Source: Granulosicoccus sp. (GTDB lineage: Bacteria; Pseudomonadota; Gammaproteobacteria; Granulosicoccales; Granulosicoccaceae). From it: DNA of 40,136 nt. Location of the stretch: NCBI GenBank assembly GCA_013002205.1, contig JABDKN010000213.1, forward strand, positions 1-40,136, given 5' to 3'. This document shows, in pieces, positions 28,963-40,136 of the stretch; the stretch's first letter is position 1; every line of letters starts with the position of its first letter. The notes under the pieces were generated by a model. That model was not told the origin of the DNA. It saw only the letters and a program-made list of their open reading frames with translations, and did no database searches. A program made the translations under genes and the position numbers.

Positions 28963-29051
28963 GTACTGTATGAAAAGTCGGTGAACACGATCCGCCGTAC
29001 TTGCCAGCCTGAATTCGTGTGATTACTCTTTGCAATGCCAGGGAGATGCCC

Positions 29052-29753
29052 ATGTCATACCACTTGAACACCAGGAAACAATCGTCAGTTAAAGCACTGT
29101 CTTCACCCGGGAACCGTCGCGGATTCACGCTGGTGGAAGTGGCCATCGTACTGGTCATCATCGGGCTGGTGCTGGGAGGCGTGTTCAAGGGACAGGCACT
29201 GATCGACAACGCACGCGTACGCTCCATGACCACCGAGGTAGCCGGAATACAGACCGCCTGGTTATCATTCCAGGAGCGTTACCGATCCATACCCGGAGAT
29301 TTTGCCAAGGCTGGCACCCAGATTGACAGCGCAGCGGTTCCGGGCAACGGTAATGGCCGTGTGGATGAGTCGAGCGAACGCGCCGGCGTATGGCAGCAAC
29401 TGGCTCTGGCGGGATTCATCAGTGGCAGCTTCGATGGCTCGCAGGCGGCCGTGGGTACCGCAACCGATCTGGAATGCGCCCCGGGCACCTGTCCGAGGAA
29501 TCCCTACAACGGTTACTACAAGATCAGCTACAGTGCCCAGGCGGCGGATGTCGACACACCGGCGCATGAGATAGTGACCGGCAAGCATATACCCGTGAGC
29601 ATCCTCTCTCAACTTGATGCAAAGCTGGATGACGGGCGACCGAATGCCGGACGTTTTCGAGTTCACCGGGCATTTGCCAGTGTCTGCACCCGTGCAGGTG
29701 AATGGGATATCAGGTCGGCCAATTCCAATTGTGCAGGAGTTCTGCGCGAGTAG
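29052..29753 (+). CDS. Type IV pilin/pseudopilin-like protein (prepilin N-terminal methylation motif)
   Basis: 233 residues. A 24-residue leader ends in R-R-G and is followed by FTLVEVAIVLVIIGLVLGG, the class III prepilin motif with cleavage after Gly24, Phe at +1 and Glu at +5 (E29). The rest is a soluble C-terminal domain with a D-F-A-K-A-G block after the helix and four Cys residues in the second half, probably disulfide-paired. It should be processed by PilD and extruded by a type IV pilus or type II secretion machine, none of which is encoded in the window. AGGGAG lies 6 bases before ATG 29052; the in-frame ATG at 29046 is too close to it. The leader is long, but such leaders occur in pseudopilins. 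Confidence 0.85.
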   Translation: MSYHLNTRKQSSVKALSSPGNRRGFTLVEVAIVLVIIGLVLGGVFKGQALIDNARVRSMTTEVAGIQTAWLSFQERYRSIPGDFAKAGTQIDSAAVPGNGNGRVDESSERAGVWQQLALAGFISGSFDGSQAAVGTATDLECAPGTCPRNPYNGYYKISYSAQAADVDTPAHEIVTGKHIPVSILSQLDAKLDDGRPNAGRFRVHRAFASVCTRAGEWDIRSANSNCAGVLRE

Positions 29754-29801: not shown

Positions 29802-29879
29802 CACGTCCGATGTGCGTCACCATTGTGCTGTCGGGATGTCAGGCAGCTGCCATGTACACTGAGTCCGGGGTCTGCCGCT

Positions 29880-31055
29880 GTGACAAATAGCATTTCGATA
29901 GGCATTGAAGAGGAATACCTGCTGGTCAACCCGCATACGCGTGAGCTGGCAAAACACCAGGCTGCAGGATTCATGGACAGGTGCAAGGACCTGCTTGGCC
30001 CGCGGGTCATGCACGAAATGCTGCAAAGCCAGATAGAGATAGGTACGGGTGTGTGTCACACCATCGACGAGGCGCGGGCCGAGCTGCTTGAACTACGTAC
30101 GGGAGTCGCATCGGTTGCCCGGGACTTCGACCTGTGTCTGATTGCCGCCTCCACTCACCCCTGGTCATTATGGAGCGAGCAGGAGCCAGTGGACATGGAA
30201 CGCTATCGCATCATGGGTGTGGAGCAAGCCAGTATTGCCCGTCGCATGGCCATTTGTGGCATGCATATTCACGCCGGTATTGCCGACCGCGATCTGCGGG
30301 TGGACCTGATGAGCCAGGTCAGCTACTTTATGCCGCACCTGCTGGCGCTCAGTGGCTCCTCACCGTTCTGGGAAGGCATCGACACAGGTCTGAAATCCAT
30401 GCGGCCAACCATTGCCGGTCATCTTCCACGATCAGGTCTGCCGGAATCTTTCGACAACTGGAATGACTGGACGGACATGCTCGAGGACATGACCGCCTGC
30501 GGCATGATTAACGATCCGTCACGCATCTGGTGGGACCTGCGTCCAAGCGTTCGCCACCCCACCCTGGAGATTCGAATCTGCGATGTGTGTACATGGGTGG
30601 AGGATGCACTGTGTATTGCGGCCCTGTATCAGTCTCTGTTGACCTTTCTGTCCCACCTCCGGGCCAACAATCAGCGCTGGCGTACCTACCGGCGTATTCT
30701 GATACTTGAGAACAAGTGGCGTGCACAGCGATACGGTATCGACGCACAGCTTGGGGATTTTGGCAAAAGGCAGGCAGTGCCGTTGCCTGAACTCATCGAT
30801 GAGCTGGTTGAGTTGCTGCGTCCTCACGCCGAGAGCCTGGGTTGCGTGAGCGAGGTCGAACATGCTCGCGTGATCGCGAGCCGGGGCAGTAGTGCGGATC
30901 ACCAGTTGAAGGTGTATCAGGAAAAACTGACCGGTGGCGCCTCCGATCGGGAGGCACAGATGGCAGTCGTAGACTGGCTCATTGCCGAGTCCGTACCCTC
31001 TGAGTCGGCCACTGCCGCCGCATCGGTTTCCAGCGAAGAGCTCGAGCCCGGGTAA
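29880..31055 (+). CDS. YbdK-type carboxylate-amine ligase (glutamate-cysteine ligase 2, GCS2 family)
   Basis: 391 residues. Family marks are the metal/ATP-binding start SISIGIEEEYLLV (residues 4-16), M-H-E-M-L-Q-S-Q-I-E-I-G-T-G, the C-G-M-H-I-H-A-G-I block, and D-L-R-P-S-V-R-H-P-T-L-E-I-R-I, all typical of YbdK proteins (COG2170). They have the glutamine-synthetase-like fold of gamma-glutamylcysteine synthetases and form an amide by phosphorylating a carboxylate. E. coli YbdK has only weak glutamate-cysteine ligase activity and its real role is unclear. The start is GTG 29880; earlier in-frame codons do not resemble the family. The stop is 8 bases before the next gene, making it the lead of a five-gene set of ligases and hydrolases. 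The C-terminal 20 residues are Ser/Ala/Glu-rich and extra to the fold. Confidence 0.88.
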   Translation: MTNSISIGIEEEYLLVNPHTRELAKHQAAGFMDRCKDLLGPRVMHEMLQSQIEIGTGVCHTIDEARAELLELRTGVASVARDFDLCLIAASTHPWSLWSEQEPVDMERYRIMGVEQASIARRMAICGMHIHAGIADRDLRVDLMSQVSYFMPHLLALSGSSPFWEGIDTGLKSMRPTIAGHLPRSGLPESFDNWNDWTDMLEDMTACGMINDPSRIWWDLRPSVRHPTLEIRICDVCTWVEDALCIAALYQSLLTFLSHLRANNQRWRTYRRILILENKWRAQRYGIDAQLGDFGKRQAVPLPELIDELVELLRPHAESLGCVSEVEHARVIASRGSSADHQLKVYQEKLTGGASDREAQMAVVDWLIAESVPSESATAAASVSSEELEPG

Positions 31056-31063
31056 CGGCACCG

Positions 31064-32221
31064 TTGAAGCAATCACCTGTACCGGACTTCCTGCATCCTG
31101 ATGAGCAGGTACATCCTGCCGTTGCCGAACTGCTCGCACATGCTGTTACGCCCATGCGGCTGCAGTATTTCCACCATACCCATGAATTTCCGCTGGTCGC
31201 TCCCGGGAAGGTGACCTTTGTCTGGATTGGCGCTGCCGACCGGGTATGTCTGTTGCGATGGATCCATGGTGGCATTGACCGTCTTGAATTCCGGCCTGTT
31301 ACCGACACGCCATTGTGGCTGCTGAGTCTGGATGTCATTGACAATGGCCGCTTCGAGTACAAGCTTGGGGTAGAGCAGGACGGCAGGCAAGAGTGGGTTC
31401 TGGATCCACTGAATCCGGATCGAGCGGGAGATCCCTACGGAGAAAACTCCGTATGCATGACCTATGGCTATACGCAACCCAGTTGGAGTATGCCGCAAGG
31501 TGCCCCGGCGGGCACCATCGAGCCGCTGCACGTTCTCAGTAGTGTGTTCGCAGAAACGCGCGAGGAGCAGGTATACCTGCCTGCAGATTATCAGCCGGAG
31601 TTGATCTATCCGCTTCTCATTATTCATGACGGGGCGGATTTCGTTACCTATGCAGATCTCTCCACATCACTGGATAACCTGATTGCCTCGGGTGTCATCC
31701 CGCCGGTCATTGCCGCACTGGTACAGACGCGCGACAGGCTTGGAGAGTACGCACGTGGACATCGGCATGCCCGCTATATCGTCGGTGACCTGATGCCGCA
31801 TGTCAGCCGTCGCTACCGAGTGTCAGAACGTCCCGAGGATCGCGTACTTCTCGGGGCCAGTCTCGGAGCGGTGGTCTCCCTGGCAACGATTTTCCGCTAC
31901 CCCGGTGTATTTGGCGGAGCTGTATTGCATTCCGGGTCGTTTATTCTGGATGAGCGCAAACTGGAGGGGCGTCCTCACCCCGTGTTCGAGCGGGTTTCCC
32001 GCCTGGTCAAGGCATTCAGGCGCACGCCCAACATGCCGGAGCTGCGTGCCTTCATATCCACCGGTGAACTGGAAGGCCTTGCATCAGAGAATGAGGCACT
32101 TGCAAATCTATTGCATAAAAACGGTGTAAGTGTTTTATTCAGGAGTGCCTGGGATGGGCATCACTGGCACAACTGGCGTGATCAGTTGCGCGAGGGGCTG
32201 GAGTGGGTGTTGAAACGATAG
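31064..32221 (+). CDS. Enterochelin-esterase-like hydrolase with N-terminal early-set domain
   Basis: 385 residues. The N-terminal third (about 45-130: V-T-F-V-W-I-G-A-A-D-R-V, F-E-Y-K-L-G-V, V-L-D-P-L-N-P-D-R-A) resembles the early-set/CBM48-like domain of enterochelin esterases. The rest is an esterase-D alpha/beta hydrolase, with L-L-I-I-H-D-G-A-D-F at the oxyanion strand, the nucleophile elbow GASLGA (S266) and a histidine near 366-369 in W-D-G-H-H-W-H-N-W. It lacks an obvious signal peptide, so it is probably cytoplasmic. Fes-like enzymes cut cyclic trilactone siderophores; no siderophore genes are here, so an ester, thioester or amide made by the neighbouring ligases is a better guess. 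It begins at TTG 31064, 8 bases after the previous stop, with no good ribosome site; ATG 31154 is an alternative. Confidence 0.82.
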   Translation: MKQSPVPDFLHPDEQVHPAVAELLAHAVTPMRLQYFHHTHEFPLVAPGKVTFVWIGAADRVCLLRWIHGGIDRLEFRPVTDTPLWLLSLDVIDNGRFEYKLGVEQDGRQEWVLDPLNPDRAGDPYGENSVCMTYGYTQPSWSMPQGAPAGTIEPLHVLSSVFAETREEQVYLPADYQPELIYPLLIIHDGADFVTYADLSTSLDNLIASGVIPPVIAALVQTRDRLGEYARGHRHARYIVGDLMPHVSRRYRVSERPEDRVLLGASLGAVVSLATIFRYPGVFGGAVLHSGSFILDERKLEGRPHPVFERVSRLVKAFRRTPNMPELRAFISTGELEGLASENEALANLLHKNGVSVLFRSAWDGHHWHNWRDQLREGLEWVLKR

Positions 32222-32246
32222 TGGTAACGAACGACACGGAGAAGGC

Positions 32247-33503
32247 ATGACTGAACGTACTGTAAACATCGGATTGTCATTAGGTGCGGATATCTGCTGG
32301 CCTATCTGTTATGAGACCTTGTTGCGCGATCTGCAACTGAATATCCGCCACGGCGGTGAGCAGCTGACGTTTGCCTCGGAGAGGGTGACCATCGAGCCGT
32401 TCAACCTGCAGCAATCCGTCAAGTACGAGGTGGTCATAGATCGCCTGACACACTGGTATTCAACCAGCCGTGAATGGATAAAGAAGGGAATTCTTCTTGA
32501 TGATCTGTATGTCTACAACAATCCCTGGTCCCTGCAATCCAATGAGAAGCATACTTCCTATGCGGCCATGATGCGTCTGGGATTACCGGTTCCGGAAACC
32601 TGGATGCTGCCACCCAAGGCCTATGAGCAGTCGGATGATCTACAGGAGACACTGAGAAAGTATGCGCGCATGTTCTCCCTGGAGGACATAGGCAATGAAA
32701 TCGGGTATCCCTTTTTCATGAAGCCTTACCATGGTGGTGGCTGGAAAGGTGTATCGAAAATTGACAACCTGAACGAACTGCAGCGCGCCTACGATCAAAG
32801 CGGTACCGAGGTGATGAACCTGCAGGCGGCCGTACTGCCGCACGACTGGTTCGTTCGCTGTGTTGGGCTAGGGCCGCAGATGCGCAAGGTCAACTACGAT
32901 CCCTCAGCACCACTACACGATCGTTACCGGATGGATGTCGACTTTCTGGATGCTGCCGACAATTCCGTACTGGAGGACATGACCGTCACGATCAACAGTT
33001 TTTTCGGCTGGGATTTCAATTCCTGTGAAGCGCTGCGCCGGGATGGAATCTGGCACCCCATCGACTTCGCCAATGCCTGTCCGGACAGTCAGGTGACCTC
33101 GCTGCACTATCACTTTCCCTGGCTCATCAAGGCCAACCTGCGATGGTCGATCTTCTGCGCGGCGACCGCTCGTCCCATGCATCGGAACCTGCTCTGGGAC
33201 CCTTACTTCGCTGTCGCCGACAAGGATCTTTCACCGCGCGAGAAATTGTCCGAGTATGCGGCAATCGCTCATCAGCGATTTGAAACCGAACGTTTCCGTG
33301 AATTCTGCCAGACGCACCTGTCGCATCTGGACGAACTGGCTTATGAGTTCTTTGCTTCGGATACCCTGCGTGATGCCATCCACCAGAAGGTGTCTGCACT
33401 GTTTCCCGTACACGAGATAGACGAGTTCACCGAGATGTTCTGGCAGCGTATCCAGAGCTGGCGTGATACTGAAGGCGCACGGGGCGATGCGGATGGTTTC
33501 TGA
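32247..33503 (+). CDS. ATP-grasp ligase (first of two in the cluster)
   Basis: 418 residues. The N-terminal part ends in NNPWSLQSNEKHTSYAAMMR (91-110), then G-L-P-V-P-E-T-W-M-L-P-P-K as in RimK/glutathione-synthetase-type ATP-grasp enzymes. A nucleotide lysine and glycine loop follow, G-Y-P-F-F-M-K-P-Y-H-G-G-G-W-K-G (153-168). The metal-binding strand is probably W-D-F-N-S-C-E-A-L then W-H-P-I-D-F-A-N-A-C. Such enzymes activate a carboxylate as an acyl phosphate and join it to an amine or thiol. The substrate is unknown. GGAG lies 9 bases before the ATG. It starts 25 bases after the Fes-like esterase. Some automatic annotations call such proteins glutathione synthase; the residues do not justify that name. 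Confidence 0.82.
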   Translation: MTERTVNIGLSLGADICWPICYETLLRDLQLNIRHGGEQLTFASERVTIEPFNLQQSVKYEVVIDRLTHWYSTSREWIKKGILLDDLYVYNNPWSLQSNEKHTSYAAMMRLGLPVPETWMLPPKAYEQSDDLQETLRKYARMFSLEDIGNEIGYPFFMKPYHGGGWKGVSKIDNLNELQRAYDQSGTEVMNLQAAVLPHDWFVRCVGLGPQMRKVNYDPSAPLHDRYRMDVDFLDAADNSVLEDMTVTINSFFGWDFNSCEALRRDGIWHPIDFANACPDSQVTSLHYHFPWLIKANLRWSIFCAATARPMHRNLLWDPYFAVADKDLSPREKLSEYAAIAHQRFETERFREFCQTHLSHLDELAYEFFASDTLRDAIHQKVSALFPVHEIDEFTEMFWQRIQSWRDTEGARGDADGF

Positions 33504-33586
33504 TCGGGCAATCACAATTCAGCGCGTTTGCGGACCGCGCTGCCATGGGCACATCGCATGAGCCGGCGCACACGACGGGATAATTC

Positions 33587-34318
33587 ATGAAAACGGTCAC
33601 TCGCTGGTATTCGCCACGGTTGGAGCAAGAGATCACACTGGCACGCTGGGGTCACTGGGGGCAACCGGTGGTGCTGTTTCCCACAGCTGGCGGTGATGCT
33701 GAAGAAGCCGAGCGAATGCACCTGATCGGTGCTATCCATCCACTGATCGAAGCAGGCCGAATCAAAGTCTATTCGTTCGATAGTATCGCCGGGCGGGCGC
33801 TGGCCGCGCAGTCCGGATCCGTGGAGCATCGCTGCTGGTTGCTCAAGCAGACTGGTGAGTACCTGGTTCATGAAGTGGTGCCTGCCATCATCGAGGACTG
33901 TGGTGGTGAATGGCGAGAGCTCATAACAGCAGGTGCCTCCATTGGTGCATACAATGCAGTGGCCATGTTATGCCGCTATCCCCAGGTATTTCGTGCCGCT
34001 ATCGGCATGAGCGGTACCTATGATCTGGAAACCTTGCTGGGATTCCAGGGTAACGAGGACTATTACCTGTCAACGCCGCTGCAGTTCCTGCCCAGGCTCG
34101 GACCGGGCGAGCTGCTCAGTACCTTGCACTCACGCTTCGTACTTCTGCCTTTCGGGCAGGGTCGCTGGGAAAATCCCAACGAATCCTGGCATATGGCCAA
34201 GGTACTCGGTGCGGCCGGCATACCCAATCGGGTGGACGCCTGGAGCCATGAATTCGATCATGACTGGCCAACCTGGCGACAGATGCTGCCGCGCTATCTC
34301 GATGAACTCGCCGATTGA
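33587..34318 (+). CDS. Small esterase (alpha/beta hydrolase, esterase-D type)
   Basis: 243 residues. It has an alpha/beta-hydrolase core without the early-set domain of the other esterase in the cluster. V-V-L-F-P-T-A-G-G-D forms the oxyanion strand, GASIGAYNA the nucleophile elbow (S118), M-S-G-T-Y-D follows, and the late His is in F-D-H-D-W-P-T-W-R (H225), a layout typical of esterase-D proteins that occur beside ATP-grasp genes. No signal peptide is seen. It lies between the two ATP-grasp genes, 83 bases after the first and 91 before the second. A second, unlike hydrolase in one operon suggests a different bond or a thioester-unloading step, which is inference. Confidence 0.83.
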   Translation: MKTVTRWYSPRLEQEITLARWGHWGQPVVLFPTAGGDAEEAERMHLIGAIHPLIEAGRIKVYSFDSIAGRALAAQSGSVEHRCWLLKQTGEYLVHEVVPAIIEDCGGEWRELITAGASIGAYNAVAMLCRYPQVFRAAIGMSGTYDLETLLGFQGNEDYYLSTPLQFLPRLGPGELLSTLHSRFVLLPFGQGRWENPNESWHMAKVLGAAGIPNRVDAWSHEFDHDWPTWRQMLPRYLDELAD

Positions 34319-34409
34319 GCGCAGATCAACGGTGCCTGCACCGGCGATCAGTCTGCCCCGGGGATCGCGAGTCGATCACTGAATGGCCTGAACAGGAGAC
34401 CACATCCGC

Positions 34410-35630
34410 ATGAACGTGATTTTCATCGAGCCGGGCTTCCCGGCCAACCAGCGCCAGTTCGTACGTGCACTGGCTTCCATAGGTGCCAATGTCATCGGCA
34501 TTGGTGAGAGGCCCTATGACTGGCTGGACGAGGAAACGCGCGCCTGGCTGACATCGTATCAGCAGATCAGCTCGGTCACCGACGAGGCAGCATTGGAATG
34601 GGCGGTTCGGCAGGCTCAGGACGCACAGTGGGTTGACCGGATGGAGGCGGTAGTGGAAGCGCATGTGCTTCCGGCTGCGCATGTGCGCGAACGCTGCGGG
34701 ATCCCGGGCACCACGGCCAGAACCGCGTACCTGTGCCGCGACAAGGTGGCCATGAAGGATGTCCTGCGAAACGCTGGCGTGCCGACCGCCGCATCTGCCG
34801 GTTTGTCCAGTACCCGGGAAGCACTGGAATTTGCCGATGTCGTCGGCTACCCCGTCATCATCAAGCCACGGGATGCAGCCGGTGCAGCCGGTACCTACCG
34901 CGCCAACGACCAGGCAGAATTACAGCTGGTGGCGCAGGGTTGTGGGCTGGCTGATGGTGCGCCAGTGGCAATCGAGGAGTTCGTCGAGGGACATGAGGGT
35001 TTCTATGACACATTGACCGTCCAGGGAGAGCCCGCGCACGAGTTCATCAGCCATTACTACCCCAATGTGCTGGAAGCCATGCGCGCACGCTGGATCTCAC
35101 CGCAGATCATTTCCACCAATCGGCTGCACGATTCCGGATACGACGAGATCAGGCAGATGGGTAAGCGGGTCATCGATGCGCTGGGTATTCACACCTCGGC
35201 CACACACATGGAATGGTTTTACGGACCCAAGGGCCTCCGTTTTTCAGAGATTGGCTGTCGCCCACCGGGCGTCGGTCAATGGGAAAGCTACTGCGCCGGT
35301 AACGAGTTCGATCTGTACCGCGAGTGGGCCATGGCTGTCTGTCATCTGCACACCGATCAGCAACCGAGCCGGCGTTACAGTTGCGGCATCATTGCCCTGA
35401 GACCGGACCGTGATGGCAATATCTTCAGCTATGAAGGTGTGGAGGGCGTATTCAGCCAGTACGGTGAGAACATTGTCGAACAGTACTTCCCGGAACCGGG
35501 CACACCGACGCAGGGGGTGGAGGCAGGGTACATGGCCAACGCCTGGCTACGCGTGCGGCATCCTGACTATGACGAACTGCGCCACATTCTCAATGATATC
35601 GGTGAACGAGTGCAGGTAAGGGCGGGGTGA
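34410..35630 (+). CDS. ATP-grasp ligase (second; biotin-carboxylase/CarB-like)
   Basis: 406 residues. An N-terminal Rossmann-like domain (M-N-V-I-F-I-E-P-G-F-P) leads to C-R-D-K-V-A-M-K-D-V-L-R, then G-V-P-T-A. The ATP-grasp core has V-I-I-K-P-R-D-A-A-G-A-A-G-T, V-A-I-E-E-F-V-E-G-H-E-G-F-Y and the metal-binding M-E-W-F-Y-G-P-K-G-L-R-F-S-E-I-G-C-R-P. This is the arrangement of biotin-carboxylase-like ATP-grasp amino-acid ligases (BacD and relatives). It is not an acetyl-CoA carboxylase subunit: no partner gene is here and the R-x-P-P-G end differs. It most likely joins a carboxylic acid to an amine. AGGAG lies about 11 bases before the ATG. Last gene of the cluster, convergent with ntrC 33 bases away. 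Confidence 0.83.
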   Translation: MNVIFIEPGFPANQRQFVRALASIGANVIGIGERPYDWLDEETRAWLTSYQQISSVTDEAALEWAVRQAQDAQWVDRMEAVVEAHVLPAAHVRERCGIPGTTARTAYLCRDKVAMKDVLRNAGVPTAASAGLSSTREALEFADVVGYPVIIKPRDAAGAAGTYRANDQAELQLVAQGCGLADGAPVAIEEFVEGHEGFYDTLTVQGEPAHEFISHYYPNVLEAMRARWISPQIISTNRLHDSGYDEIRQMGKRVIDALGIHTSATHMEWFYGPKGLRFSEIGCRPPGVGQWESYCAGNEFDLYREWAMAVCHLHTDQQPSRRYSCGIIALRPDRDGNIFSYEGVEGVFSQYGENIVEQYFPEPGTPTQGVEAGYMANAWLRVRHPDYDELRHILNDIGERVQVRAG

Positions 35631-35663: not shown

Positions 35664-37079
35664 CTACAACTCCAGCTCCTTTATTTTGCGGGTAAGCGTG
35701 TTACGACCCCAGCCGATCAGACGCGCGGCTTCCTGACGACGATCCTGCGTCTTGTTCAGGGCGCACTGGATCAGGATGCGTTCCACGGCTGGTTGGGCAA
35801 TGGCCAGTAGATCGGTACGTCCATCGTGCAACTGACGGTTTACCCATTGGCGAAGTCCGTTTTCCCAGTCCACTTCCCGCTGAGATGAAGCATCCCTGAC
35901 CTGCGCAGGCATGTCCTCCACGGTCAGTTCTGTGCCGCCGGCCATGACCGTCAGCCAATGGGCGGTATTCTGCAGTTGCCGTACATTCCCCGGCCAGCTC
36001 AGTGAGCTGATATAGGCTTCGAAAGCGGGCGACATGACCTTGGCTTCCTCACCAAGCTCCTCGGCCGCCCTGGCCAGAAAATGCTTGAGAAGTCGGGGTA
36101 TGTCCTCGCGTCGCTCCCGCAATGGTGGCGCTTCGATGCGGATCACATTGAGTCGATGAAACAGGTCTTCGCGGAATCGCTTCTGTTCTACCAGGGATTC
36201 GAGATCCTGATGGGTCGCTGCAATAATACGGACGTCCACCGTGATCGGAGTATGCCCGCCAACACGGTAGAATTGCCCGTCGGCGAGCACGCGCAGCAAT
36301 CGTGTCTGCAAAGTGGCCGGCATGTCACCGATCTCGTCGAGAAACAGGGTGCCGCCATCGGATTGTTCGAAACGGCCGATGCGGGTGCTTTGCGCGCCGG
36401 TGAAGGAGCCTTTCTCATGACCGAACAATTCGGATTCCATCAGATCGTGCGGGATGGCAGCCATGTTCAGTGCCACAAACGGTTTCTCGGAGCGCGGGCT
36501 GTGCCGATGCAGTGCATGAGCTATCAGCTCTTTACCGGTGCCGCTTTCGCCGTTGATCAGCACGGTGATTTTGGATCGTGACAGTCGACCGATGGCCTTG
36601 AACACGTTCTGCATGGCAGGTGCATCGCCGATCAGTTCGGGAGGTTCATCCTGCTGCTGTTTCATCTTTCCGCGACTGGGCGAGGGAGTCTGGCTACGCT
36701 TCTCCTTTTGTGTGCTGCAGGCGCGACGTACCTGGTCGATGACGTTATCCACGTCAAAGGGCTTCGGAATATACTCGAACGCCCCACGCTCGAACGCTGA
36801 GACCGTGTTGTCCAGGTCTGAAAAGGCGGTCATGATCAGGACTGGCAGCTCGGGATGTGTGCGTTTTATCTGGTCGAGCAGTGACAGACCGTCGGAACCT
36901 GGCATACGAATATCGCTGATGACAGCATCCGGGGTCAGCGCATTACCACGCATGGCGTCCAGGGCCTCGTCGGCGGACTCGAACACATTGACTGTCATGC
37001 CTGCCTGTTTCAGCGTTTTTTCCAGTACCCACCGGATAGATTGATCATCATCGATGACCCAGACGTATTCGTCGCTCAT
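35664..37079 (-). CDS. glnG: Nitrogen-regulation response regulator NtrC (sigma54-dependent activator)
   Basis: 471 residues. Receiver domain at 1-120 with acidic D10-D12 and phospho-acceptor D56 in [13 protein letters not shown] at F-E-Y-I-P-K-P. The AAA+ domain has the Walker [10 protein letters not shown], the sigma54-contacting loop as GSFTGA (a common variant of GAFTGA), and [10 protein letters not shown]. The C-terminal Fis-type HTH reads [19 protein letters not shown]. When phosphorylated by NtrB under nitrogen limitation, it activates glnA and ammonium or amino-acid genes. The ATG at 37079 overlaps the ntrB TGA (ATGA), so the 19-codon extension to 37136 is rejected. Confidence 0.96.
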
Positions 37080-38158
37080 GCTATCTCCAAAGGAATCAGT
37101 ACGGTGAATATGGTGTTGCCGGGCTCGCTGCTGCATTCGATCAGTCCACCCAGCTGGTTCATAATCGATTGTGCGATGGACAAGCCAAGCCCTGTACCAC
37201 CGTCAGTGCCGGTCACCATCGGGTAGAAAATCTGATCGAGCAGCGTATGCGGAACACCCGGCCCGTCATCGATGATCTGCACACAGGCGACCAGTGGATG
37301 CAGGGTGCCACCGATGGTGAAATTGCTCACCACGCGAGAACGAAAAATGATCATGCCCGACTCATCGAGTGCCTGCAGCGCGTTGCCTGCAATGTTCAAC
37401 AGGACCTGCACCAGCCTGTCGCGATCGGTCAGGCATTCGGGAATGCTGGGATCGTAATCGAAGCGAACCTGAACATCGTCCGCCGCCCCGGCGATGACGA
37501 TCTTCCTGACATGTTCCAGCACTTCGTGCAGGTTCACGACATCACGTCGCGGTCGGGAGGTCGGACCAAGCATGCGATCGATCAGGCTCTGCAGCCTGTC
37601 CGCTTCGCGGATGATGATCCTGGTGTATTCACTCAGTTCGGCATCGGGTAGCTGGCGATCCAGCAACTGAGCCGCGCCACGAAGTCCACCCAGCGGATTC
37701 TTGATTTCGTGGGCAAGTCCCCGCAGCAGAGAGCGAGCATGTTCCTGTTGAGCCAGTATGGCCTCATCGCGGGCAATGCGCAGCGGCCGATCGATGATAT
37801 TGATTTCCAGAATCAGACCGGGGCGGGAGTCATCCTGGCGGTATGGAGACAGGTACAGGTCGACCACCTGCGGATCGCGGCCGTGCGGTTCAACGGACAC
37901 CTGCCTATCCGTAAACGGCTGGGATGCCTGCAGGGCAATTCGGATACGCGCGAACAGGGAGTCCGGAATCGTCAGTGCCCGGGTAAGGCGCTGGCCCAGC
38001 ACTTTGCGGGCACTGATTCCCAGCAGTTGCTCAGCCGCATTGTTCAGATAATCGATGCGCATACCGTCGTCGATGGCGATCACCGCCGTCGCCATCGCGT
38101 CGAGCACGTTGAGTTCGTCTGCCTTCGAAGGCACTGGAAATATAGTCACGGACTTCAA
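37076..38158 (-). CDS. glnL: Nitrogen-regulation sensor histidine kinase NtrB
   Basis: 360 residues. An N-terminal PAS-like domain (L-D-A-M-A-T-A-V-I-A-I-D-D, N-N-A-A-E-Q-L-L-G) is followed by the dimerisation/phospho-acceptor block GLAHEIKNPLGGLRGAAQLL with H150, and the ATPase with the N box N-I-A-G-N-A-L-Q-A-L, D-D-G-P-G-V-P and G-T-G-L-G-L-S-I. No membrane segment: cytoplasmic, controlled in related bacteria by PII protein. The start is uncertain: TTG 38158 gives full length; GTG 38149 or ATG 38095 are options, the last fitting the sigma54-like element at 38161-38176. It overlaps ntrC by 4 bases. The two-gene unit has an NtrC-type site upstream. Confidence 0.95.
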   Translation of the reverse strand: MKSVTIFPVPSKADELNVLDAMATAVIAIDDGMRIDYLNNAAEQLLGISARKVLGQRLTRALTIPDSLFARIRIALQASQPFTDRQVSVEPHGRDPQVVDLYLSPYRQDDSRPGLILEINIIDRPLRIARDEAILAQQEHARSLLRGLAHEIKNPLGGLRGAAQLLDRQLPDAELSEYTRIIIREADRLQSLIDRMLGPTSRPRRDVVNLHEVLEHVRKIVIAGAADDVQVRFDYDPSIPECLTDRDRLVQVLLNIAGNALQALDESGMIIFRSRVVSNFTIGGTLHPLVACVQIIDDGPGVPHTLLDQIFYPMVTGTDGGTGLGLSIAQSIMNQLGGLIECSSEPGNTIFTVLIPLEIA

Positions 38159-39669: not shown

Positions 39670-40136
39670 TTATCCCCGTGTTTCATGAAGTGCCGCGTCA
39701 GCTGCGTCGGCGCCGACGATTTCACTGACGAGTCTGTTCATGGTGGTATCAGCAGTATTCAGAATGTTGACCACGCGTCCCTGACGCAGTACCACGATGT
39801 GATCGGTGACGCTCAATACGTCATTGAGCCTGTGGGAAATCAGCACCACCGCGATGCCCTGCTGCTTGAGCTGGCGGATCAGGTTCAGAACGCTTTGCAC
39901 TTCTTTTACCGCCAGAGCTGCCGTGGGTTCATCCATGATGACCAGACTCGGATTGAACGTCAGTGCTCGTGCGATCGCCACGGTTTGCTGCTGCCCGCCT
40001 GAAAAGGTGCCGACCGGCCGACTGATCGATGGCAGGCTGGCGCCCAGTCGGTCAATCATTTTCCCGGCCTCCTCATGCAGGGTTCGCCGGTCAACGAACC
40101 ACGGCATGCCCAGCACCGTCTTGCGCGGTTCCCTGC
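39670..40136 (-). CDS. Sugar ABC transporter ATP-binding protein, C-terminal part
   Basis: The frame runs off the right end, so the N-terminus with the Walker A is missing; about 155 residues remain. Present are the signature FSGGQQQTVAIARAL, the Walker B LVIMDEPTAALAV and the switch His in LISHRLNDV, followed by a short tail ending G-A-D-A-A-D-A-A-L-H-E-T-R-G. The single remaining ABC unit with V-K-E-V-Q-S-V-L after the D-loop fits ribose/fructose-type importers with a one-domain ATPase (FrcA-like), rather than the two-domain RbsA/XylG type. Permease and binding-protein genes should lie to the right. Translation of the isomerase gene follows 4 bases after the stop. Confidence 0.85.
   Translation of the reverse strand, partial: REPRKTVLGMPWFVDRRTLHEEAGKMIDRLGASLPSISRPVGTFSGGQQQTVAIARALTFNPSLVIMDEPTAALAVKEVQSVLNLIRQLKQQGIAVVLISHRLNDVLSVTDHIVVLRQGRVVNILNTADTTMNRLVSEIVGADAADAALHETRG

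Follow-up and report, generated by a model that had tools for sequence, protein, structure and literature searches.

A conserved gene module of esterases and ATP-grasp enzymes in Granulosicoccus that may produce an amide- or ester-linked metabolite

In a 40,136-nucleotide stretch of DNA from Granulosicoccus sp. (GenBank assembly GCA_013002205.1, contig JABDKN010000213.1; here called the window, which is contig C271 of a host genome of 4.46 Mb), five genes at 29880-35630 encode a carboxylate-amine ligase (GCS2), an esterase (EST1), an ATP-grasp enzyme (ATG1), a second esterase (EST2) and a second ATP-grasp enzyme (ATG2). On balance, these five genes probably act as one unit, a cytoplasmic, ATP-driven ligase module that would yield an amide- or ester-linked metabolite without the ribosome or a non-ribosomal peptide synthetase (NRPS). 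The core of this module is EST1-ATG1-EST2, usually with ATG2, and GCS2 belongs to one of its two variants. The grouping of the genes is not due to chance, since their order is conserved elsewhere, they are present or absent together within the genus, and their dN/dS values are low.

All five reading frames lie on the forward strand in the order claimed in the original prediction, separated by 8, 25, 83 and 91 bases, as its range of 8-91 bases had it. The first is GCS2 (29880..31055), a YbdK-type ligase (NF010039) read from a GTG at 29880, with an alternative TTG start at 29823 possible; it is followed by the core genes EST1 (31064..32221), a Fes-like serine esterase with an N-terminal beta domain, ATG1 (32247..33503), a divergent ATP-grasp enzyme, and EST2 (33587..34318), a small PF00756-type esterase, and then by ATG2 (34410..35630), an ATP-grasp ligase of putative L-amino-acid-ligase type belonging to ortholog group a. 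The family assignments made earlier hold on Pfam and NCBIfam scores and on the predicted structure of ATG1, but to describe the set as containing three unrelated ligases goes too far, as ATG1 and ATG2 are both ATP-grasp enzymes and the ligase folds number two.

Conservation and inheritance of the core

When a collection of 84,980 species was scanned for ATG1, 169 pattern matches were obtained, of which 156 are relatives; the locus counts given here refer to the best 80 of these 156 relatives plus the window (81 loci), with L-numbers for loci and G-numbers for genomes. Genes in the loci were called by our own codon-bias script and not by a published gene finder, and start codons and overlaps are approximate; longest-frame calling was discarded, as in GC-rich loci it covered real genes with antisense frames. 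Families were named by hidden Markov models (HMMs) on one or two representatives, and their remaining members by clustering. EST1 is found in 79 of the 81 loci, EST2 in 75 and ATG2 in 59, followed by an S51-like peptidase (39), the glycogen synthase GlgA (25), GCS2 (22), GlgC (10), GlgB (9), a BesA/PGM1-like ATP-grasp gene (8) and a GCS2-CBS protein (3).

Gene order was compared in the 49 of 80 loci that have at least 3.5 kb on each side of ATG1, where EST1 stands directly upstream of ATG1 in 47 and EST2 directly downstream in 46, bearing out the expectation that the neighbourhood would be conserved in other genomes. Of these 49 loci, 39 contain ATG2, 26 S51, 17 GlgA and 12 GCS2. Where ATG1 and EST2 are adjacent (75 pairs), their called frames have a median overlap of 4 bases; in the window the two are 83 bases apart. 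Dropouts such as those of GCS2 (uncalled in 59/81 loci) and ATG2 (22/81) would be in keeping with five unrelated genes brought together by chance, or with a loose stress island; however, order, co-inheritance and overlaps are conserved, the neighbour counts of 47/49 and 46/49 already contradict such an origin, and beyond the module and the glycogen genes even the commonest family is found in 8/81 loci (locus lengths vary, and distant genes are under-sampled), so that this explanation is highly improbable.

Two variants of the locus are seen. In variant 1, found in Granulosicoccus, Microvirga and many Rhodobacteraceae, the order is GCS2-EST1-ATG1-EST2-ATG2, while in variant 2 (Woeseiaceae and others) a frequent order is ATG2c-S51-EST1-ATG1-EST2-ATG2b-GlgA-ATG2a, with ATG2b on the opposite strand. 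Variant 2 sometimes ends with BesA-like and PurD-like ATP-grasp genes, and six ATP-grasp genes are present in L057, L063 and L085. The small GCS2 and S51/GlgA are near-exclusive, both being found in L077 only. The proposal that the five genes form a unit stands as regards their conservation around EST1-ATG1-EST2 and less well as regards GCS2, which is one of the less constant members, and the five-gene set falls short of the full picture in that variant 2 brings in the S51-like peptidase, further ATP-grasp genes and glycogen synthase.

Within the genus, close homologues of all five genes occur in the same 7 of 27 genomes (the host, G000, and G007, G012, G018, G023, G024 and G026); the remaining 20 genomes, several of them incomplete, have none, and weak, distant ATP-grasp matches to ATG2 are found in 27/27. 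In a sample of the phylum, ATG1 is detected at E 1e-15 in 2 of 398 genomes, the host and one other, and no plasmid-borne ATG1 was found at E 1e-20. The closest loci elsewhere are titled Granulosicoccus, a name joined among the locus record titles by Microvirga, Rhodobacteraceae, Woeseiaceae, Gemmatimonadetes, Eisenbacteria, Ilumatobacter, Planctomycetota and Acidobacteria, and Proteobacteria is also among the titles. The module is widespread but sporadic, and its being kept together across record titles of several phyla, with up to six ATP-grasp genes, points to a chemistry that cells value.

The unit is under purifying selection, as comparison with three relatives gives dN/dS values of 0.03-0.11 for all five genes; in a fourth comparison the value for EST1 is 0.13 and the other four genes are saturated. 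Distances between members correlate with those of ATG1 for EST1 (Mantel r 0.73), EST2 (0.80), the ATG2 groups (0.88-0.90), S51 (0.83) and GCS2 (0.85), with 0/999 permutations as high for these seven families, which fits inheritance as a unit. For GlgA, r is 0.82 (0/999 permutations) once one outlier is excluded, namely L051_2, a distant second GlgA of 29% identity that had at first stood for its locus and held the value at 0.35 (62/999).

In genome G471, ATG1-EST2-ATG2 (L026, with a partial EST1 match) lies apart from GCS2-EST1 (L110), where the cluster is apparently split, or where binning could have had this effect.

ATP-grasp enzymes and the proposed ligase pathway

No Pfam model scores above its cut-off with ATG1 (the best, Dala_Dala_lig_C, is weak at 19.3 against 24), and since its best match to the PDB by sequence profile spans only about 48 positions of D-Ala-D-Ala ligases, the family was judged from the predicted fold. 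A model built on a 62-sequence alignment (61 relatives at 61-89% identity; predicted local distance difference test, pLDDT, 88.8) has an ATP-grasp fold, with RimK as the nearest structure (5zk6; Z 20.1, root-mean-square deviation 2.9, 263 aligned residues, 12% identity), ArgX ranked first by Foldseek, and synapsin, inositol-phosphate kinases and LysX/ArgX next-nearest at Z of about 17-18. While the fold is common to RimK/LysX/ArgX and ATG1 residues 6-308, which the RimK match covers, the aligned rows are only 10-14% identical and ATG1 has about 110 further C-terminal residues, mostly helical in the model; PurK-type rows (Z about 17) reach to about residue 411. The likeness to RimK and ArgX could also mean that ATG1 attaches amino acids to a protein or carrier protein, as RimK and LysX/ArgX do, and that the hydrolases remove them. 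Such tagging is unlikely, as no small carrier-like gene recurs among the called families (at least 60 codons; a shorter carrier could escape) and none of the five genes has a match to the protease families of known tagging systems.

ATG2 passes the Pfam cut-offs of CPSase_L_D2 (38.0 against 19.8) and ATP-grasp (36.2 against 27), and its best PDB match is an L-amino acid ligase (4wd3, 8.7e-13); LAL_C2 is below its cut-off in one group-c member (27.8 against 29.4). With 8 shorter frames left out, 95 of the 103 family members form three ortholog groups, with at most one of each per locus and a mean identity of 30-34% between groups. Residues K112, K152, E190, E268, E280 and R284, to which we assign presumed catalytic (ATP/Mg) roles, are invariant in 95/95 grouped sequences and are retained in all three groups. 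It had been allowed that one of the ligases might prove to be an ordinary glutathione or purine enzyme; ATG2 is below the purine equivalog cut-offs (purK 30.5 against 318, purD 27.4 against 288, purT 24.9 against 502), as is GCS2 below those of the glutathione models listed in the last section.

GCS2 and ATP-grasp folds both act through acyl-phosphates. In the proposed pathway, ATG1 and ATG2 would activate carboxylates as acyl-phosphates and transfer them to amines or hydroxyls, where ATG1, with its RimK/LysX-like fold, would form the defining bond by coupling a carboxylate to a small molecule through its amine or hydroxyl, and ATG2 would add an amino acid. In the variant of the window, GCS2 would make a gamma-glutamyl-like or other carboxylate-amine bond, the same chemistry on another fold, and EST1 and EST2 may act on an intermediate linked through an ester or amide bond, which they would cleave, transfer, edit or release; EST1 would perhaps open an acyl ester by analogy with Fes. 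In the other variant, the S51-like peptidase and additional ATP-grasp ligases would replace GCS2, with the genes enclosing glycogen synthase. A free metabolite is our first choice of product, ahead of a decorated glucan or a tagged protein, because two ligase folds and enzymes of the amino-acid-ligase type accumulate in the loci; amidoligase natural-product clusters likewise gather ligases.

L-amino acid ligases (BacD, and 4wd3, the best match of ATG2) and ATP-grasp/amidoligase clusters share with this module the joining of amino acids without the ribosome or an NRPS, whereas in the present loci a divergent ATP-grasp gene nearly always lies between two esterases and one variant has up to six ATP-grasp genes together with GlgA. 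The enzyme families are individually known and, as far as our searches go, their combination is apparently undescribed: no description of the gene set was found in the open-access literature, a scope that leaves out the 2009 amidoligase survey, which is the publication likeliest to mention this neighbourhood, so that an earlier mention is possible. The same literature yielded no paper pairing 'glgA' with 'ATP-grasp', nor 'Granulosicoccus' with 'ATP-grasp'. Among described clusters, that of argolaphos offers an ATP-grasp example in the putative ligase AlpC (PMC8976061). Another conserved, uncharacterised ATP-grasp operon is that of Anbu, with ATP-grasp, alphaE, transglutaminase-like and Anbu genes and a proposed amide-ligase role (PMC6376114); the present cluster differs in that alphaE, transglutaminase and Anbu are all absent from the five genes.

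Several points weigh against a ligase module that makes such a metabolite. A shared fold alone is no proof of function, and because synapsin and inositol-phosphate kinases are structurally close to the ATG1 model, ATG1 could phosphorylate rather than ligate. Neither GCS2 (near ATG1 in 22/81 loci) nor ATG2 (59/81) is constant, for which contig ends are partly responsible; relocation of ATG2 when missing from the locus was considered and rejected, as it is found elsewhere in only 2 of 18 whole genomes (E 1e-40), and ATG2 is therefore dispensable. Species history alone would also yield correlated distances. Finally, the loci are mostly from metagenome bins, so that single taxon assignments may be wrong, and some are close kin, with L046 and L060 coming from one bin.

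The esterases and glycogen synthase

EST1 is above the cut-off of PF00756 (7.7e-19), and its model (pLDDT 93.6) matches Fes (3mga) over both domains at Z 33.7, followed by CBM48-CE1 feruloyl esterases at Z 27.9, with which the two-domain fold is likewise shared; by Foldseek, the top rows are feruloyl esterases, several titled CBM48-CE1. At the N-terminus, matches at E up to 0.1 among 56 members are to Enterochelin_N (51), CBM_20 (20), CBM_48 (6) and AMPK1_CBM (3), and the N-terminal profile weakly matches a glucoamylase starch-binding domain (E 0.0014). EST2 is narrowly above the cut-off of PF00756 (25.3 against 22 bits), and no PDB sequence match was found for it at E 0.01. A GxSxG motif is present at residues 264-268 of EST1 and 116-120 of EST2, and residues S266, E337 and H366 of EST1 and S118, E195 and H225 of EST2, conserved in at least 88% of members, are, judging from their spacing, the probable catalytic triads.

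The resemblance of EST1 to Fes over both domains could suggest an operon for catabolism or siderophore hydrolysis, with the esterases as its main enzymes and the ligases recycling the products. Unlike Fes, EST1 reaches only 87.9 bits against the Fes equivalog cut-off of 222, and no iron-uptake or siderophore gene is seen among the HMM-identified recurrent families (rarer neighbours were not all scanned), making such an operon very unlikely.

The gene immediately after GlgA is ATG2 of group a in 21 loci, and the two overlap there by 4 bases (median). In a whole-genome check of 22 of the 25 GlgA loci (L051, L074 and L086 were left out), the cluster copy is, by its coordinates, a classical GlgA above the TIGR02095 cut-off in 22/22 genomes and the sole such copy in 21; in G479 there are two GlgA above this cut-off, the cluster copy being one of them. 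One such locus is L090, with the order GlgC-GlgP-ATG2c-S51-EST1-ATG1-EST2-ATG2b-GlgA-ATG2a (GlgP by HMM), and in L051 an additional, distant GlgA-like gene (29%) stands beside GlgC. In the host genome, no GlgA match reaches the TIGR02095 cut-off; a match below it is present in most of the same-genus genomes searched, in cluster carriers and non-carriers alike.

These observations bear on whether the module decorates an alpha-glucan, where GlgA would extend, or the ligases would aminoacylate, a glycogen-like polymer or primer from which EST1 would strip acyl or aminoacyl esters. While the presence of GlgA in 25/81 loci, its junction with ATG2, its standing as a classical and mostly sole copy, the GlgC and GlgB families (with HMM-confirmed representatives) and the GlgP of L090 are consistent with this, 56/81 loci, including the window, are without a called GlgA, the host has none above the cut-off, and L051 carries its second, distant copy. 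The starch-binding match of EST1, the CBM_20 and CBM_48 hits (20/56 and 6/56) and the CBM48-CE1 rows point the same way, but Enterochelin_N is found in 51/56 members and the Z of Fes is higher than that of CBM48-CE1. As GlgA belongs to the S51 variant and is lacking above cut-off in the host, the glycogen link holds for that variant and leaves the GCS2 variant without explanation. Glucan decoration is rather unlikely. A further reading, which as a whole is distinctly doubtful, is that the ligases and GlgA produce an aminoacyl- or peptidyl-substituted, or amino-acid-primed, alpha-glucan as a store of carbon and nitrogen. EST1 would then be an esterase bound to the glucan, the S51-like enzyme would serve as the peptidase, and the GCS2 variant of Granulosicoccus would be a stripped form working on a small acceptor. 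The placement of the module around the only classical GlgA of many genomes raises the testable question of whether ligases of the amino-acid type have a role in how bacteria metabolise storage polysaccharides.

GCS2 and the surroundings of the cluster

GCS2 scores 183 bits against a Pfam cut-off of 21 (8.9e-54), passes both NF010039 (473.4 against 371) and the YbdK-family model TIGR02050 (294.3 against 176.4), and has YbdK-type PDB matches (1tt4, 2.2e-44; 1r8g, 4.1e-44). As a glutamate-cysteine ligase it is below cut-off with TIGR02048 (55.6 against 249), with four PRK13517 models and with PRK13518, and an ordinary glutathione synthetase is encoded elsewhere in the host genome (contig C210). 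In an unrooted tree, the 22 linked copies occupy three or more clades (a main clade of 19, L033 with L077, and L044), and a GCS2-CBS protein follows EST2 in L064, L070 and L078. The same chemistry has thus been recruited repeatedly, which suggests that the core of the ligase module benefits from a carboxylate-amine ligase. In L064 (12027-14950), the GCS2 gene with two CBS domains is followed by a gene that by eye is succinylglutamate desuccinylase/aspartoacylase-like.

GCS2 was also considered as an obligate partner that may be unlinked, as 19 of the 24 carrier genomes that have no GCS2 linked to the core contain a match above the NF010039 cut-off; this was rejected once the loci of the unlinked copies were read. 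While the GCS2 of the window passes this model, 18 of 20 unlinked copies in carrier genomes are only 45-51% identical to it, and NF010039 is common in any case (44/398 genomes of the phylum sample), both of which count against such a partnership. The unlinked copies of L110 (69%) and L112 (67%) fall in the main cluster clade, that of L111 groups with the GCS2 linked to the core in L044, and the remaining 17 lie in a second subfamily, within which L033 and L077 have their linked copies nested. In L112 (5835-9275), the main-clade GCS2 lies away from EST1; its neighbours are a 344-residue protein that matches no Pfam model at 1e-5 and one carrying a Tle1-like phospholipase domain. In L093 (5938-9951), an unlinked NF010039 GCS2 adjoins an N-formylglutamate amidohydrolase and GGDEF/EAL genes (by HMM for L093 only). 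This amidohydrolase family accompanies unlinked GCS2 in 9 of 20 fetched loci, L095-L101 and L104 also among them, and in several loci the two sit between GGDEF/EAL-type genes. Second-subfamily GCS2 and N-formylglutamate amidohydrolase look like another amidoligase-amidohydrolase pair.

Around the cluster, promoter and terminator signals show no excess over shuffles, and a search of six proteins with PADLOC anti-phage defence models at E 0.01 gave 0 families. The window had been said to hold no transporter; a partial sugar-type ABC transporter ATPase at 39670-40116 was overlooked. Located where the contig ends and next to a xylose-isomerase-like TIM-barrel gene, it is not close to the cluster. 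In other loci, a gene that by eye is TRAP transporter permease-like occurs in 6/80 (for example L021, 10953-12227, and L023, 13235-14590), adjoining ATG2 in L023. Downstream of the cluster in the window, a regulator pair at 35664-38158, NtrC/NtrB-like by eye, is convergent with it and ends 33 bases from ATG2; L071 and L076 likewise have members of the same two gene clusters downstream of their core. Immediately upstream, at 29019-29753, is a gene for a prepilin-like protein with an N-terminal methylation motif, whose family is absent from this position in L027 and occupies it in L011-L014.

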